Of a DNA stretch of 27,035 nucleotides, positions 15,639 through 26,990 are shown one piece after another. The stretch is taken from the IMG/VR virus record IMGVR_UViG_3300047455_000115, positions 1-27,035 of that record; one strand, written 5' to 3'. Source of the DNA: a virus. The position numbers were made by a program, and so were the translations under genes. How positions within the stretch are numbered: position 1 is the first letter of the stretch; each line of letters starts with the position of its first letter. The notes beneath the pieces are model-generated. The model was not told the origin of the DNA, ran no database searches, and saw only the letters and a program-made list of their open reading frames with translations.

Positions 15639-15959
15639 GTGGATGAAGAAGAACAGTTCGATGACATTTGGGCAGACTGGATGGCCGAAGAGGGCCTAGC
15701 CATTGAAGATGAGATCCAAGAAACTTTGGTTTCTAGCCGTGGTTTGTTGGATATTGACGATGGAACACATGCTCAATGGATAGATGGAACTCTTGGTGTT
15801 CTTCTTACATTCGATTTATCTGAGGTTCATTCCATTCTTAATGCGTGGGATGAAGCTGAGGATGGGAACATGATGGCCCTTGCAACCTTGATGCATTGGT
15901 TGCAGGGCTTCAGTTGTTTCCTTGAAGCATGCATGTCGAATATTGAAGAAGAGAACTAG
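15639..15959 (+). CDS. Acidic protein of unknown function at the end of the late block
   Basis: A 106-residue, strongly acidic protein (EEEQFDDIWADWMAEEGL at the start) starting at GTG behind GGGAGG. A nearby ATG is in another frame. A helical, weakly hydrophobic stretch (LMHWLQGFSCFLEACMSN) lies at the C-terminus. The stop TAG sits in the CTAG that also provides the stop of the leftward gene from the opposite strand, so the two blocks meet with a two-base overlap. Function unknown; the acidity is compatible with a DNA-mimic or lysis-associated role, but nothing proves this. Confidence 0.65.
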   Translation: MDEEEQFDDIWADWMAEEGLAIEDEIQETLVSSRGLLDIDDGTHAQWIDGTLGVLLTFDLSEVHSILNAWDEAEDGNMMALATLMHWLQGFSCFLEACMSNIEEEN

Positions 15960-16435
15960 GTCTTTCGATTCAAGTACTGTTGTACTGCTGGTTCTCTCAG
16001 CAAACTAGTTCGCAGTTTTTCTGCTAGTTCATCTCTGCGTCTGGCCATAGTTGTTTTGGGGATGTCTAATATTATGGCCACAAAACGCAAAGAAAGACCC
16101 ACGTCAACGAGCATGTGGTAAAGCCACTGCTCGTCTTCTGTGAGTCCTATGAATGTTTCATGTACTGCGAGAATAAGATCTTCTCGGTTTTCTTCTCGTT
16201 CTTCTATAGACCGAAGCGGGTCCTCGAAAGGACCCGCCTCCATAATGCTTTGCATTTCTGTTTCAGGCGTTGGCCTGTAAAGAACTTCTTTCCTAGCTGA
16301 TCTGTTTGTTTCTCCCCAGTGACCACTTTTAGGTTTGCTGGTTACGTTTGTCCAAGGTCGTTGTGGTTGCAGTGAAGGAAAGTTTGCTTTCCTAAGAGCG
16401 TTAAAGAGTTTTGCTCCCTCGCTCTCCTCATCCAC
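15956..16435 (-). CDS. Sigma-factor region-4-like HTH protein
   Basis: A 159-residue protein, GTG start, overlapping the upstream gene by 8 bases. Residues about 70-145 read as an RNA polymerase sigma region-4-like helix-turn-helix: DPLRSIEEREENREDLILAV, then LTEDEQWLYHMLVDVGLS, then FVAIILDIPKTTMARRRDEL with the recognition helix at about 127-142. A basic, Pro-rich N-terminus (15-50) carries no region-2 signature. It is the last gene of the leftward replication unit, which makes it a candidate timing factor that could redirect transcription to the late rightward genes. An HTH regulator other than sigma is the main alternative. Confidence 0.6.
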   Translation of the reverse strand: MDEESEGAKLFNALRKANFPSLQPQRPWTNVTSKPKSGHWGETNRSARKEVLYRPTPETEMQSIMEAGPFEDPLRSIEEREENREDLILAVHETFIGLTEDEQWLYHMLVDVGLSLRFVAIILDIPKTTMARRRDELAEKLRTSLLREPAVQQYLNRKT

Positions 16436-19903: not shown

Positions 19904-20671
19904 CTACCAGGGATTTTCTCCGAGGTGTTCACCTCGGCATTTGCCTGCCTGCCAGACAGGACACCATAAAGGAGAGCAATGCCAGCCCTCCCAATTCTGT
20001 GGCCAAGTCTCTGCGTCCGACATTATTGTCGGGACCATCGACCAGCACAGTTCCAGAAAAGCATTCTTATGCTGTTCTGTTCTTTCGATCTCAATTATTT
20101 GAAGCTTCCCATTGGCCATCACACCGAAGTTGAACTCCGTTGCATCCAATGCCCAACTATAGGCATGAGATTGGATATCCCAACGCTTCTTCTCCCAAGC
20201 TTGGTACTCCCTGCCAGGATTCTTCCAATCCCACAGCGCTCCAGACTTATCTACCCAGTCCACAGTGCCAGTAAGAACTAGACGAACGTTACCCCTAACC
20301 CCTATCTCCCTCTCGAAAGGAGTTTCAACTCCAACAGGATCAAGGATGGGAAACAACTCGTCATACCAAACTTTCAGATTGGCTCGAACGACATCAACAA
20401 TCTTCTCGTACTCATGTCTCCACACTTCAACTTCAGATGAGTAACTAACAATAAATTCTTCTGCGACTTCAGTTATCTCTTCCAATGATGGGCGAGGCAT
20501 ACCCGCCATCATTAAACGTCCTGCGTATTCAATCGCTGTGTGGACAGCGTTCCCTCTAAGAAAATCTGTTGTTTCTTTTTGGGATACAAGTCCGAGGCGT
20601 TCCTGCCTCGCTTGTTCAGGGCATCTAAGGAATGTATTAATCCAACTCTGTCGTAAACGTATCTCAATCAT
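19904..20671 (-). CDS. Fe-S cluster PD-(D/E)XK exonuclease (Cas4/RecB-like)
   Basis: A 255-residue nuclease. Motifs in order: LRQSWINTFLRCPEQ with Cys17 (entry of the Cas4/AddB-type fold), GNAVHTAIE with His44, GTVDWVDKSG with Asp138, LWDWKNP with Asp148-x-Lys150 as the D-x-K active site, and WDIQSHAYSWAL with Gln167/Tyr171. Three C-terminal cysteines (Cys232, Cys237, Cys245 in WHCSPLWC and GKC), with Cys17, form the set used to bind a [4Fe-4S] cluster in this group. Such enzymes usually trim DNA ends for recombination. It is the first gene after promoter P1; its Shine-Dalgarno (CAGGGAGATAG) is complementary to a leader hairpin loop. Confidence 0.85.
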   Translation of the reverse strand: MIEIRLRQSWINTFLRCPEQARQERLGLVSQKETTDFLRGNAVHTAIEYAGRLMMAGMPRPSLEEITEVAEEFIVSYSSEVEVWRHEYEKIVDVVRANLKVWYDELFPILDPVGVETPFEREIGVRGNVRLVLTGTVDWVDKSGALWDWKNPGREYQAWEKKRWDIQSHAYSWALDATEFNFGVMANGKLQIIEIERTEQHKNAFLELCWSMVPTIMSDAETWPQNWEGWHCSPLWCPVWQAGKCRGEHLGENPW

Positions 20672-20738: not shown

Positions 20739-20759
20739 ATTTCTAACAGTGTTAGAAAT
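20739..20759. repeat. Palindrome site 1 of 3 (leader of the replication unit)
   Basis: Nine-base arms ATTTCTAAC and GTTAGAAAT are perfect complements around a 3-base centre AGT. The same arms occur at 25646-25664 and 26854-26880, each once in the leader of a leftward unit. The two-fold symmetry and sequence conservation suggest an operator for a dimeric regulator; an RNA hairpin with a triloop is the alternative. Confidence 0.75.
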
Positions 20760-20780: not shown

Positions 20781-20812
20781 ATGGGGGGAACCCTTTTGGG
20801 GGTTCCCCCCAT
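20781..20812 (-). terminator. Strong hairpin after the HTH gene, terminator-like
   Basis: Thirteen-base perfect arms (ATGGGGGGAACCC and GGGTTCCCCCCAT, 20781-20793 and 20800-20812) around a 6-base loop, 22 bases after the stop of the HTH gene at 20835. It is GC-rich and very stable. The following tract on the transcribed strand is only TTTG-like, so intrinsic termination may be inefficient; a processing or attenuation role is the alternative. It overlaps the start site region of P1. Confidence 0.55.
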
Positions 20813-20838
20813 TTTAACATGGATACAACTAAAGTCAA
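20811..20838 (-). promoter_or_regulatory. Promoter P1 (replication unit)
   Basis: On the minus strand: TTGACT (20833-20838), 16-base spacer, TAAAAT (20811-20816), giving a start near 20804 and a leader of about 130 bases before the exonuclease gene. The -35 contains the TGA stop of the HTH gene. The -10 abuts the terminator-like hairpin. Weaker than P2 by spacing. Confidence 0.5.
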
Positions 20839-24627: not shown

Positions 24628-25608
24628 TCAAACTCCGACTAGCTCACGCATCCTATGAGTGAGCGGAGTGTCGTTATCCCTAATCTGATCCACCTGCTTC
24701 CTTATCTGCAGATCAGTACTAGAGGAGCGAGTGAAGTCGTGTGTCTCCGCAGATTGAATAGCATTCCACGCAGCCCACGCTGTACCAGCCGCAGGACCAT
24801 CGTCCTCCACCTGCCAGTAATACTTCACAGCTTTCATTTTCTCTTCCCACGCATTCATGGTCCGAGTGCTCACCTCTTCGCCCTCAGGTGCAGTCGGCTC
24901 AGGCAGAAAGGTACGAAGAAAGCTCTGATATTGAGCATAAGTAAAGAGTATGCGACGCATAGCGCCAGCCATACGGTTAAACATCTCCGCATGTTGCCCT
25001 GCTTTAGCAAGCACAAGACTACGATCCAACAGAATCTGATCGTGGTTCGTAGTTCTACGCAGCTTTATCTTGGTGTTCTCTGCTGTGCATTGGTTGCTAC
25101 AGAAGAGCCGCCCAACATATGAAGACATAAACGTAGGCCATGTCCCATCCAAAGAACCACCTATAAGGAGATTCGACTGCAACCAGTCTGGATAGTCGGG
25201 GCTAGCTACGTTGTATACATCTCCTAGTTCAAAGGTTGCCATGAATCGCTTGCCGTTATCCAGCGGGCGCATAGCTGTGCATGAGTTAGGAAAAGCAGCT
25301 TCTACTGTTTCAATCCACTGTTGGTGATTGGACTCAGGATGCTGAGGTGGAACCACATTGAGAATCATGGGATCTTCCCAATCATTGTCCTGCCTGTACA
25401 AGACTTTTCTCTCAGGTTCACCTTTGTATTTGCCACTCTTCACCTCAGGTATTTGACCCTTTATCTCTATTGGCATTGAGTGGACTTTGAATAGGACTCC
25501 GTTATCGATAGCGGCATCCACAGCATTCATTTGACCACCGAACCTATGCTCGGACTCGATCATGCCGTATTCACCTCCACCGTATGGAGTCGGGGATATG
25601 ATGCTCAT
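24628..25608 (-). CDS. DUF932-like phage protein
   Basis: A 326-residue protein and the first gene after promoter P2, with GGGAGG (25615-25620) as ribosome binding site. Segments match the DUF932/phage-plasmid protein family: GVLFKVHSMPIEIKGQ near 38-52, LNVVPPQHPESNHQQW, then LLIGGSLDGTWPTFMSSYVG, RLFCSNQCTAEN and TTNHDQILLDRS (the 'RvVCsNt' and rHt-like motifs). The C-terminal third is helical. The family is widespread on phages and plasmids but its biochemical role is not established. Intact full length. Confidence 0.72.
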   Translation of the reverse strand: MSIISPTPYGGGEYGMIESEHRFGGQMNAVDAAIDNGVLFKVHSMPIEIKGQIPEVKSGKYKGEPERKVLYRQDNDWEDPMILNVVPPQHPESNHQQWIETVEAAFPNSCTAMRPLDNGKRFMATFELGDVYNVASPDYPDWLQSNLLIGGSLDGTWPTFMSSYVGRLFCSNQCTAENTKIKLRRTTNHDQILLDRSLVLAKAGQHAEMFNRMAGAMRRILFTYAQYQSFLRTFLPEPTAPEGEEVSTRTMNAWEEKMKAVKYYWQVEDDGPAAGTAWAAWNAIQSAETHDFTRSSSTDLQIRKQVDQIRDNDTPLTHRMRELVGV

Positions 25609-25645: not shown

Positions 25646-25664
25646 TTTCTAACGCTGTTAGAAA
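25646..25664. repeat. Palindrome site 2 of 3 (leader of the DUF932 unit)
   Basis: Eight-base arms TTTCTAAC and GTTAGAAA are complementary around GCT. The next outer bases are G and T, so the perfect symmetry stops there. Its centre is 42 bases from the end of the P2 -10 box, the same as at P3, in the transcribed leader. Confidence 0.75.
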
Positions 25665-25696: not shown

Positions 25697-25725
25697 AGTA
25701 TAGGCCCTGTATTCACCTAAGTCAA
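25697..25725 (-). promoter_or_regulatory. Promoter P2 (DUF932/GP88/HNH unit)
   Basis: On the minus strand TTGACT (25720-25725), 17-base spacer and TATACT (25697-25702), a near-consensus sigma70-type promoter with a start near 25690. The -35 contains the TGA stop of the upstream gene. Upstream lies a palindrome (GTCAACGA-G-TCGTTGAC, 25721-25737) overlapping the -35, a possible operator. Its 30-base upstream part matches that of P3. Confidence 0.75.
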
Positions 25726-25934
25726 CGACTCGTTGACAGTAGGGATTGGAATGTGTAACGAGTACGGACAGGCCACTCGCAAGGCTCCATGCGACGGAAC
25801 CCATCGAAGAAATCACGGACAGCCTCATCCTCACCACAAGGACTACAGATATACAAACCTGCACCCATACGACTCAAGGCATTCTGAGCTTGCACCTCGG
25901 CAAGGTCAGACACTCGGCACCTAGGACATTTCAT
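25722..25934 (-). CDS. 70-aa CxxC zinc-ribbon-like phage protein
   Basis: A 70-residue protein: MKCPRCR (CxxC at 3-6), then ALSRMGAGLYICSPCGEDE (CxxC at 30-33) and AVRDFF. Two CxxC pairs spaced for a zinc ribbon, followed by the 'CGEDEAVRDF' segment, is a frequent pattern in actinophage small proteins. It overlaps the upstream gene by 14 bases; GGGGAG lies before the ATG. Its stop is inside the P2 -35 hexamer. Confidence 0.7.
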   Translation of the reverse strand: MKCPRCRVSDLAEVQAQNALSRMGAGLYICSPCGEDEAVRDFFDGFRRMEPCEWPVRTRYTFQSLLSTSR

Positions 25935-26121
25935 TGTTTTGCTCCCCTATGTATTTGTTTACTTCAGACCACATCTTTAAGCGGTCATCGATCCTGCGAT
26001 CCAATAGATCATTGAACCATTCATTATCGTCATCGATAAGTATGTTCACATGATGGACGATCATTTCTTCCAATGCTTCCAGCATGCGACCAGTGATTGT
26101 GTTGTCTTTCCAATCAGTCAT
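25921..26121 (-). CDS. 66-aa helical protein of unknown function
   Basis: A 66-residue acidic helical protein (MTDWKDNTITGRMLEALEEM, then HHVNILIDDDNEWFNDLLDR, then RIDDRLKMWSEVNKYIG). The start is the ATG overlapping the preceding gene's end by 8 bases, after GGAG; a longer in-frame start would overlap more. No family recognised. Confidence 0.6.
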   Translation of the reverse strand: MTDWKDNTITGRMLEALEEMIVHHVNILIDDDNEWFNDLLDRRIDDRLKMWSEVNKYIGEQNNEMS

Positions 26122-26362
26122 TGTCTTCTCCAAACAATTCATCCCCACACGGAGGACACATATAGTACGAATAGCCAGCAGGCCGATCCAACAACCTCAC
26201 AAGCTGAGACTGCATGATGATCTCCCGTTCATCGGCAGTCTTATCAGGCCACACATCCTGAATTAAAGAACCACCAACCCAATCCCACACCTCGTCTTCA
26301 ATTACCGAAGTGAAATAGTCGTTACCGCATTTACCACGACAACGAGCACGAGCCTCCAACAT
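26114..26362 (-). CDS. 82-aa CxxxC/CxxC zinc-ribbon-like protein
   Basis: An 82-residue protein starting two bases after the upstream stop (TGAGATG) with GGGAG as ribosome binding site. CRGKC (about 8-12) and YMCPPCGDELFGED near the end supply a C-x3-C and a C-x2-C pair. The spacing and the phrase QLVRLLDRPAGYSYYMCPPCG resemble the small zinc-ribbon phage family represented by the 25722 gene. Function unknown. Confidence 0.65.
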   Translation of the reverse strand: MLEARARCRGKCGNDYFTSVIEDEVWDWVGGSLIQDVWPDKTADEREIIMQSQLVRLLDRPAGYSYYMCPPCGDELFGEDND

Positions 26363-26363
26363 C

Positions 26364-26528
26364 TCAAGCTCCCTTTCTATGTTCGGAGTCCAGCATTGCT
26401 TGCCAGTACTCAGGTCCACGGGCACGCTCTCGTGCCCAATACCACTGACTAATCAGATAGCAACCACGACAGAACATGATTACGCACAGAACTAGCAGCG
26501 GGCCAGGATAAGTAGGTACAGCAGGCAT
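26364..26528 (-). CDS. 54-aa small membrane-like protein
   Basis: A short gene recovered by hand translation. ATG overlaps the preceding stop (TGATG). The product MPAVPTYPGPLLVLCVIMFC followed by RGCYLISQWYWARERARG has one hydrophobic segment (about 10-20) next to a basic, aromatic segment, which suggests a single-pass membrane or membrane-associated peptide. The stop is followed immediately by the next start. Function unknown. Confidence 0.6.
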   Translation of the reverse strand: MPAVPTYPGPLLVLCVIMFCRGCYLISQWYWARERARGPEYWQAMLDSEHRKGA

Positions 26529-26815
26529 CACCCAACCTCCAGATGACTGGACCTGCTAAACGCAGTCTCTTGAGCACGAACCATTCTCGTAACCATTGCC
26601 TCAGCGTCGAACTCTTGAGCGCTAATTCCACGTTTCTGCATCTCATTTAGCAAGCCCTGCAACTCATCGATCACTGCTTTCGCATGACCTATGCCGTCAT
26701 AGTCTTGCTTCCAGCGATCCCAATGAGCAACAAACACATCTGAATGGTTAGTCACTTGAGCTTTAAGTAGCTCGGGACTCGCTAAATGAATATTCTCAAA
26801 GTCTATATAGGACAC
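26528..26815 (-). CDS. 95-aa first gene of unit P3, unknown function
   Basis: A 95-residue protein starting at a GTG chosen because AAAGGGAG (26823-26830) precedes it by seven bases; a longer in-frame start at 26857 would place the Shine-Dalgarno inside the gene. The sequence is MSYIDFENIHLASPELLKAQ, then SDVFVAHWDRWKQDYDGIG, HAKAVIDELQGLLNEMQKRG, and EAMVTRMVRAQETAFSRS. Mostly helical, no known motif. First gene after promoter P3 and palindrome site 3. Confidence 0.6.
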   Translation of the reverse strand: MSYIDFENIHLASPELLKAQVTNHSDVFVAHWDRWKQDYDGIGHAKAVIDELQGLLNEMQKRGISAQEFDAEAMVTRMVRAQETAFSRSSHLEVG

Positions 26816-26853
26816 AGTTATTCTCCCTTTGTTGTATCCAATATTAAGTATCC

Positions 26854-26880
26854 CCAATTTCTAACATCGTTAGAAATTGG
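26854..26880. repeat. Palindrome site 3 of 3 (leader of unit P3)
   Basis: Perfect 12-base arms (CCAATTTCTAAC and GTTAGAAATTGG) around ATC, the longest of the three sites and containing the common core ATTTCTAAC/GTTAGAAAT. The centre is 42 bases from the end of the P3 -10 box. Confidence 0.78.
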
Positions 26881-26908
26881 TTAGTCGGTATCTCCATCGA
26901 CAAACTCC

Positions 26909-26937
26909 AGTTTACGCTATGGCGCATCCTAAGTCAA
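26909..26937 (-). promoter_or_regulatory. Promoter P3 (first leftward unit)
   Basis: On the minus strand TTGACT (26932-26937), 17-base spacer, TAAACT (26909-26914), start near 26902. The ten bases TTGACTTAGG at the -35, and a TCCCTACTGTC element upstream of it, are shared with P2. Confidence 0.7.
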
Positions 26938-26956
26938 GGACCTACGGACAGTAGGG

Positions 26957-26990
26957 ACGGCTCCACATACGGAACGGCTCCCCATACGGA
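26957..26990. repeat. Tandem 17-base repeat with hairpin at the right end
   Basis: Two directly adjacent copies of ACGGCTCC(A/C)CATACGGA (26957-26973, 26974-26990) differ at one base. The second copy with its following bases forms a perfect 7-bp stem, CGGCTCC/GGAGCCG (26975-26981 with 26988-26994). It lies just upstream of P3. The roughly 155 bases right of palindrome 3 hold only P3, these repeats and an A/T-rich edge; no gene is supported there. Confidence 0.6.

Follow-up and report, generated by a model that had tools for sequence, protein, structure and literature searches.

Two kinds of phage control system offer the closest comparison for the elements considered here. In lambdoid phages, immunity depends on the repressor CI and on palindromic operators, a hypervariable regulator lies between conserved genes, and heteroimmune phages such as 434 and lambda differ by an exchange in which repressor and operators move together. 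In Cluster A mycobacteriophages such as L5 and Bxb1, a single phage-encoded repressor acts at many dispersed sites termed stoperators (PMC6550527, PMC3029335, PMC9283540), which are asymmetric 13-bp sequences present in one orientation at 24-34 copies per genome (PMC3029335). The Cluster A repressor combines an N-terminal HTH with a second DNA-binding domain and binds as a monomer, and maintenance of the prophage relies on either an integrase or ParA (PMC6550527, PMC3029335, PMC9283540).

Here, we describe a computational analysis of a 27,035-base viral contig (the window) in which late genes are carried on the plus strand and early genes on the minus strand. Palindromes in the leaders of the early operons probably function, at a likelihood of about 75% judged from comparative sequence evidence, as operators of a phage-encoded, immunity-like repressor whose specificity switches together with that of its sites.

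Three early promoters and their palindromes

The window holds three exact copies of a 19-base palindrome, TTTCTAACnnnGTTAGAAA, where 0.11 would be expected even allowing up to 3 mismatches, and every early operon has a copy approximately 35-55 bases downstream from its inferred start. The three promoters, P1, P2 and P3, are all on the minus strand. At P3, a -35 hexamer TTGACT (26932-26937), kept in relatives, is followed after a 17-base spacer by a -10 hexamer TAAACT (26909-26914) and by the palindrome TTTCTAACATCGTTAGAAA (26858-26876), whose arms are perfect over 12 bp once extended. The gene placed under its control (26528-26857, minus strand, ORF as listed) has no assigned function and likely begins at a GTG near 26815. 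At P2, the -35 TTGACT (25720-25725) overlaps the stop codon (TGA) of an ORF at 25722-25934; it is followed by a 17-base spacer, a -10 TATACT (25697-25702), the palindrome TTTCTAACGCTGTTAGAAA (25646-25664), and genes for a DUF932 protein (24628-25608, minus strand) and GP88. P1 consists of a -35 TTGACT (20833-20838), a 16-base spacer and a -10 TAAAAT (20811-20816), with the palindrome TTTCTAACAGTGTTAGAAA (20740-20758) ahead of an operon that opens with an exonuclease gene (19904-20671, minus strand) and continues with helicase, primase and RusA genes. A reading frame at the end of this operon (15956-16435, minus strand) weakly matches a family of phage sigma factors (E 0.006). The P1 leader also carries a perfect, GC-rich hairpin of 28 bases (20783-20810, minus strand) that is kept in relatives and lies immediately after the -10, so that the P1 transcript would begin within the hairpin.

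A sequence-only reading of the window had drawn attention to the likeness of P2 and P3, and its measurements are borne out: the 30 bases at 25716-25745 and 26928-26957 (minus strand) are identical at 24 positions (80%), the spacers and -10 hexamers are as it described, and the distance from the left end of the -10 on the plus strand to the palindrome centre is 42 bases at P2 and P3 and 62 at P1, or 47, 47 and 67 when measured from the 5' end of the -10. A pattern built from both 30-mers matches at those two places only, with no match expected in shuffled sequence. The two 30-mers are 1212 bases apart, as are the palindromes of P2 and P3, and this equal offset places the two cassettes in register.

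That reading had further suggested a duplicated or co-selected control cassette, marked by the 30 bases and the common 42-base distance. The control cassettes are real and conserved, but a 30-base duplicated module with a fixed distance is not supported as their unit. About a dozen related contigs among public viral sequences have the combination of promoter, leader and palindrome at these three places. The exact 30-mer core has no further copies in viral contigs. Its upstream part, TCCCTACTGTC, is kept with small changes at P3 of relatives (26947-26957 in the window, minus strand). At P2, where it falls in the coding end of the upstream ORF (25735-25745, minus strand), it is missing from four relatives (L006, L009, L010 and L011) in which promoter and palindrome are still present. 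Two copies of TCCCTACTGTC alone, at up to one mismatch, are not significant, as 6 of 100 shuffles contained as many. Spacing from the -10 to the palindrome at P2, P3 and P1 is 47/47/67 in two of the palindrome classes defined below (A and B) but 45/55/65 in the third (C), and ranges from about 45 to 84 bases in distant lineages. Given the absence of the upstream part in four relatives and the variation of spacing by class, the functional unit is the promoter plus the palindrome and not the upstream 30-mer. The 20 extra bases at P1, which had been likened to two helical turns, need no such explanation, for the additional 28-base hairpin sits between the -10 and the operator and accounts for the longer spacing.

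The register of P2 and P3 raises the question of their descent. P2 may have been copied from the P3 cassette or vice versa, leaving the 30-mer and its spacing merely as a relic of duplication; such an event accounts for the 24 matching positions and the common 1212-base offset of both elements, and is compatible with an operator function of the palindromes. We consider this unlikely as the explanation, since every relative sequenced in this region already has both cassettes, with leaders and -10 hexamers that differ, and since the upstream match at P2 is lacking in four of them. Duplication also leaves P1, and the class switching described next, unexplained.

Concerted change of the palindrome among related phages

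Within any one phage the palindrome has a single form, but that form varies from phage to phage, and three classes were distinguished: A (TTTCTAAC), B (TTTATAAC) and C (AAATATAA). Class A sites are the TTTCTAACnnnGTTAGAAA of the window; class B sites are TTTATAACnnnGTTATAAA, with one arm reading TTTGTAAC at P2 of L009 and L010; class C sites are AAATATAAnTTATATTT, with a fourth site that carries one substitution. Phages with several sites have a single class throughout, A, B or C, without mixtures, and none of 200,000 label shuffles, which ignore phage kinship, was as uniform. Between L007 (class A) and L008 (class C), class C replaces class A at both P1 and P2 within flanks that are approximately 99.5% identical, and at P1 the difference is confined to about 30 bases at the operator. 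Operators likewise differ between near-identical flanks in L013 (B) and L044 (A), and in L009 (B) and L027 (A). On a tree of the P1 flanks the operator classes are scattered, requiring 4 changes on the best tree where a single origin of each class would require a minimum of 2. What is conserved, and what co-varies, is the palindrome, a member of a genome-wide set that reaches past the window.

Palindromes positioned in this manner might instead work as RNA, forming 5' leader hairpins with a stabilising or attenuating effect on early mRNAs and perhaps serving as targets of a phage RNA-binding protein. Every P1-P3 site falls within a leader inferred to be transcribed, and most can form hairpins of about -5 to -14 kcal/mol. 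However, all sites of one phage have a common primary sequence beyond what pairing would require, the P2 hairpins are weak in class B (-3.3 kcal/mol) and class C (-1.2 kcal/mol), the centre of the class C palindrome is a single base, and some sites are not in leaders at all, such as the one that follows the terminator of the regulator gene discussed below. We regard a role in RNA as very improbable.

Class A palindromes were also observed outside this group. L022 (IMGVR_UViG_3300032321_000984), a phage without detectable relatives of the window's proteins, has six of them, three exact and three with one mismatch, and two of these flank a small ORF; they may have arisen by transfer or by convergence. 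Single palindrome matches in isolate-derived or unrelated contigs (e.g. L030, L034, L036 and L040) were counted as chance.

A variable regulator-like gene beside TerS

Contig L004 continues to the right of where the window ends, and the proteins common to both are 96-100% identical; the regulator of the window's own phage was inferred from L004. Adjoining TerS, and outside the window, L004 encodes a candidate class A regulator of 253 residues (L004:404-1162) whose gene is flanked by two more palindrome sites, one of them positioned after a terminator downstream of the gene, for 5 sites in the contig altogether. In these regulators the GTG start is located about seven bases past a -10-like hexamer, which suggests, as a prediction from sequence, a leaderless transcript. 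The corresponding slot holds the class B regulator in L054 (14-724, minus strand) and the class C regulator in L008 (5570-6268), the latter 24% identical to that of L004. The first ~180 residues of the L054 regulator are 58-69% identical to class A, and its C-terminal part belongs to the class C type, suggesting that regulator domains may be shuffled at an MGGN linker. The L054 and L008 regulators differ in their N-terminal parts and have in common a C-terminal part unlike that of L004 and L023. Class A and class B regulators diverge most at residues 117-127 (GLAITKSxLQK versus TLPASKRQIQN, the latter from one class B sequence), which makes this stretch a plausible candidate for the recognition segment.

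Searches with the regulators against Pfam, PHROGs and PDB sequences gave no significant match, and the absence of any Pfam match for the L004 protein means that neither an HTH_3 nor a peptidase S24 domain was found in it. No match was obtained by a DNA search of cultured phages or by tblastn with TerS and the regulator, and a wider regulator search returned three contigs only, all already in the set of relatives. The AlphaFold model of the L004 regulator is helical, with a pLDDT of ~80 for roughly residues 21-160 only; with this usable portion a fold search of the PDB had no significant match, and a second fold comparison (VIA) gave no Z above 5. Structure prediction for the L107 regulator was poor.

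The slot beside TerS is diverse across the TerS family. Among 80 TerS-bearing loci, the slot genes form at least five groups without sequence relation to one another, with singletons besides, and TerS itself is 63-82% identical to the L008 copy while the slot gene is unrelated between many lineages. Homology between the regulator groups was not detectable by profile comparison, a result compatible either with separate origins or with a single ancient family. L106 and L107 are ~95-100% identical in DNA around TerS, and yet their regulator cassettes cannot be aligned and their operators are different. A de novo palindrome search of the TerS relatives recovered a recurrent palindrome, in 2-9 copies, in 18 of 21 early regions. 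Late regions had none (0 of 21), and dinucleotide shuffles hardly ever yielded one. In total there are approximately 18 palindrome types, 14 of them with three or more copies, and the type differs for almost every lineage. L088 and L089 have no repeated palindrome by this search; their slot is occupied by a different gene, followed by a GP88-like gene.

Regulator and palindrome vary together. Homologous regulators are associated with more similar half-sites (a mean of 5.5 versus 3.7 matches, a value reached in none of 20,000 permutations), although some of this likeness could stem from the phages being related in general. Three metagenome-assembled genomes show known regulator-operator pairings again. 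Several distant lineages have strong -35/-10 pairs 45-84 bases upstream of their own operator, which is mostly located just before the ribosome-binding site, and in L063 and L067 some sites directly precede ribosome-binding sites that have no promoter.

Other features of this region were observed. An element near GCACTGGATATTGATATCTATACATA is kept upstream of TerS across lineages in which the adjoining regulator is not kept (L004 80-120, L008 5260-5300, and the equivalent place in L054, L063, L067 and L096); it may be a late promoter or a packaging site. The large terminase of L008 (1203-2767, minus strand) appears to be split in two overlapping reading frames. Many assemblies end near TerS (e.g. 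L051, L052 and L057), breaking at the regulator slot, as expected if the slot is hypervariable within samples. GP88 relatives are found in Mycobacterium and Streptomyces phages, and TerS relatives are on contigs from bins of marine Acidimicrobiaceae and of other Actinomycetota, but also from one Euryarchaeota bin. The host is likely actinobacterial.

A proposed immunity system and its counterparts

These comparisons point to the following mechanism. A repressor encoded beside TerS, just past the right end of the window, would bind each palindrome, probably as a dimer, with the centre of the site approximately 35 bases (P2, P3) or 55 bases (P1) downstream of the inferred start. Once in place, the repressor would obstruct either promoter clearance or elongation, so that the early and replication operons fall silent, and it would also bind additional sites, some near its own gene and others between genes of the early set. 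Repressor specificity and all operators of one phage would switch jointly, such that a phage would not be repressed by one of another class, a relationship equivalent to heteroimmunity. We infer the start sites, the identity of the binding protein, its action in repression and not activation, and immunity as its purpose.

Alternatively, the sites might be targets of a phage-encoded activator, of a phage timing factor or of a regulator from the host, with immunity not involved. Integrase, serine recombinase/resolvase and ParA (PF00589, PF00239 and PF13614) were not found in 22-25 possibly incomplete contigs, among them the near-complete 36.8 kb contig of L011, and on this ground a role in lytic timing is possible. 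A host factor, however, hardly explains why phages that are nearly identical should have different sites, the repeated joint replacement of all sites and the regulator is left without a reason by a timing factor, and a location downstream of strong promoters fits blocking rather than activation. We consider this group of explanations improbable. The diversification of regulator and sites, in turn, is the outcome that selection for immunity would be predicted to produce.

The proposed repressor system resembles that of Cluster A in that a single phage-encoded regulator has many dispersed sites, in having sites both at promoters (the P1-P3 leaders) and away from them (the L004 site past the terminator; L063 and L067), in a consensus that differs between groups jointly with the regulator, and in the proposed block of elongation. 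Unlike stoperators, the sites are symmetric palindromes of 17-20 bp rather than asymmetric 13-mers in one orientation, and they number 2-9 per early region as opposed to 24-34 per genome. The regulator sequences are unrelated to known families, switching takes place between nearly identical phages, and neither integrase nor ParA was found in the contigs searched. With lambdoid phages the system has in common palindromic operators, an exchange of regulator-operator specificity, and a hypervariable regulator amid conserved genes. It differs in that the operators are situated in leaders downstream of the -10, and do not overlap the -35/-10 of divergent promoters; in that they occur at unlinked loci up to ~7 kb away; and in that no HTH_3/S24 repressor was found by Pfam and no Cro is recognisable. 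In view of these few, symmetric sites and of a regulator without a known relative, we do not claim membership in either the Cluster A or the lambdoid CI group. Rather, we put forward tentatively, at slightly less than even odds and on comparative grounds, that these phages, which are marine and probably actinobacterial, may possess an uncharacterised immunity system. It would pair a repressor of no known family, encoded in the TerS-adjacent slot, with palindromic operators dispersed over the early leaders; these would switch as a set between almost identical genomes, with approximately 18 specificities in all, in phages that have no gene recognisable as serving integration or partition.

The process by which a repressor and its many unlinked operators jointly acquire a new specificity is poorly understood. 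The natural pairs described here, in which flanks are 95-99.5% identical and operators are fully replaced at several loci, make intermediates and routes of recombination readable. If immunity specificities do change so fast, frequent superinfection or lysogeny-like states would be implied among marine phages that have no recognisable integrase.
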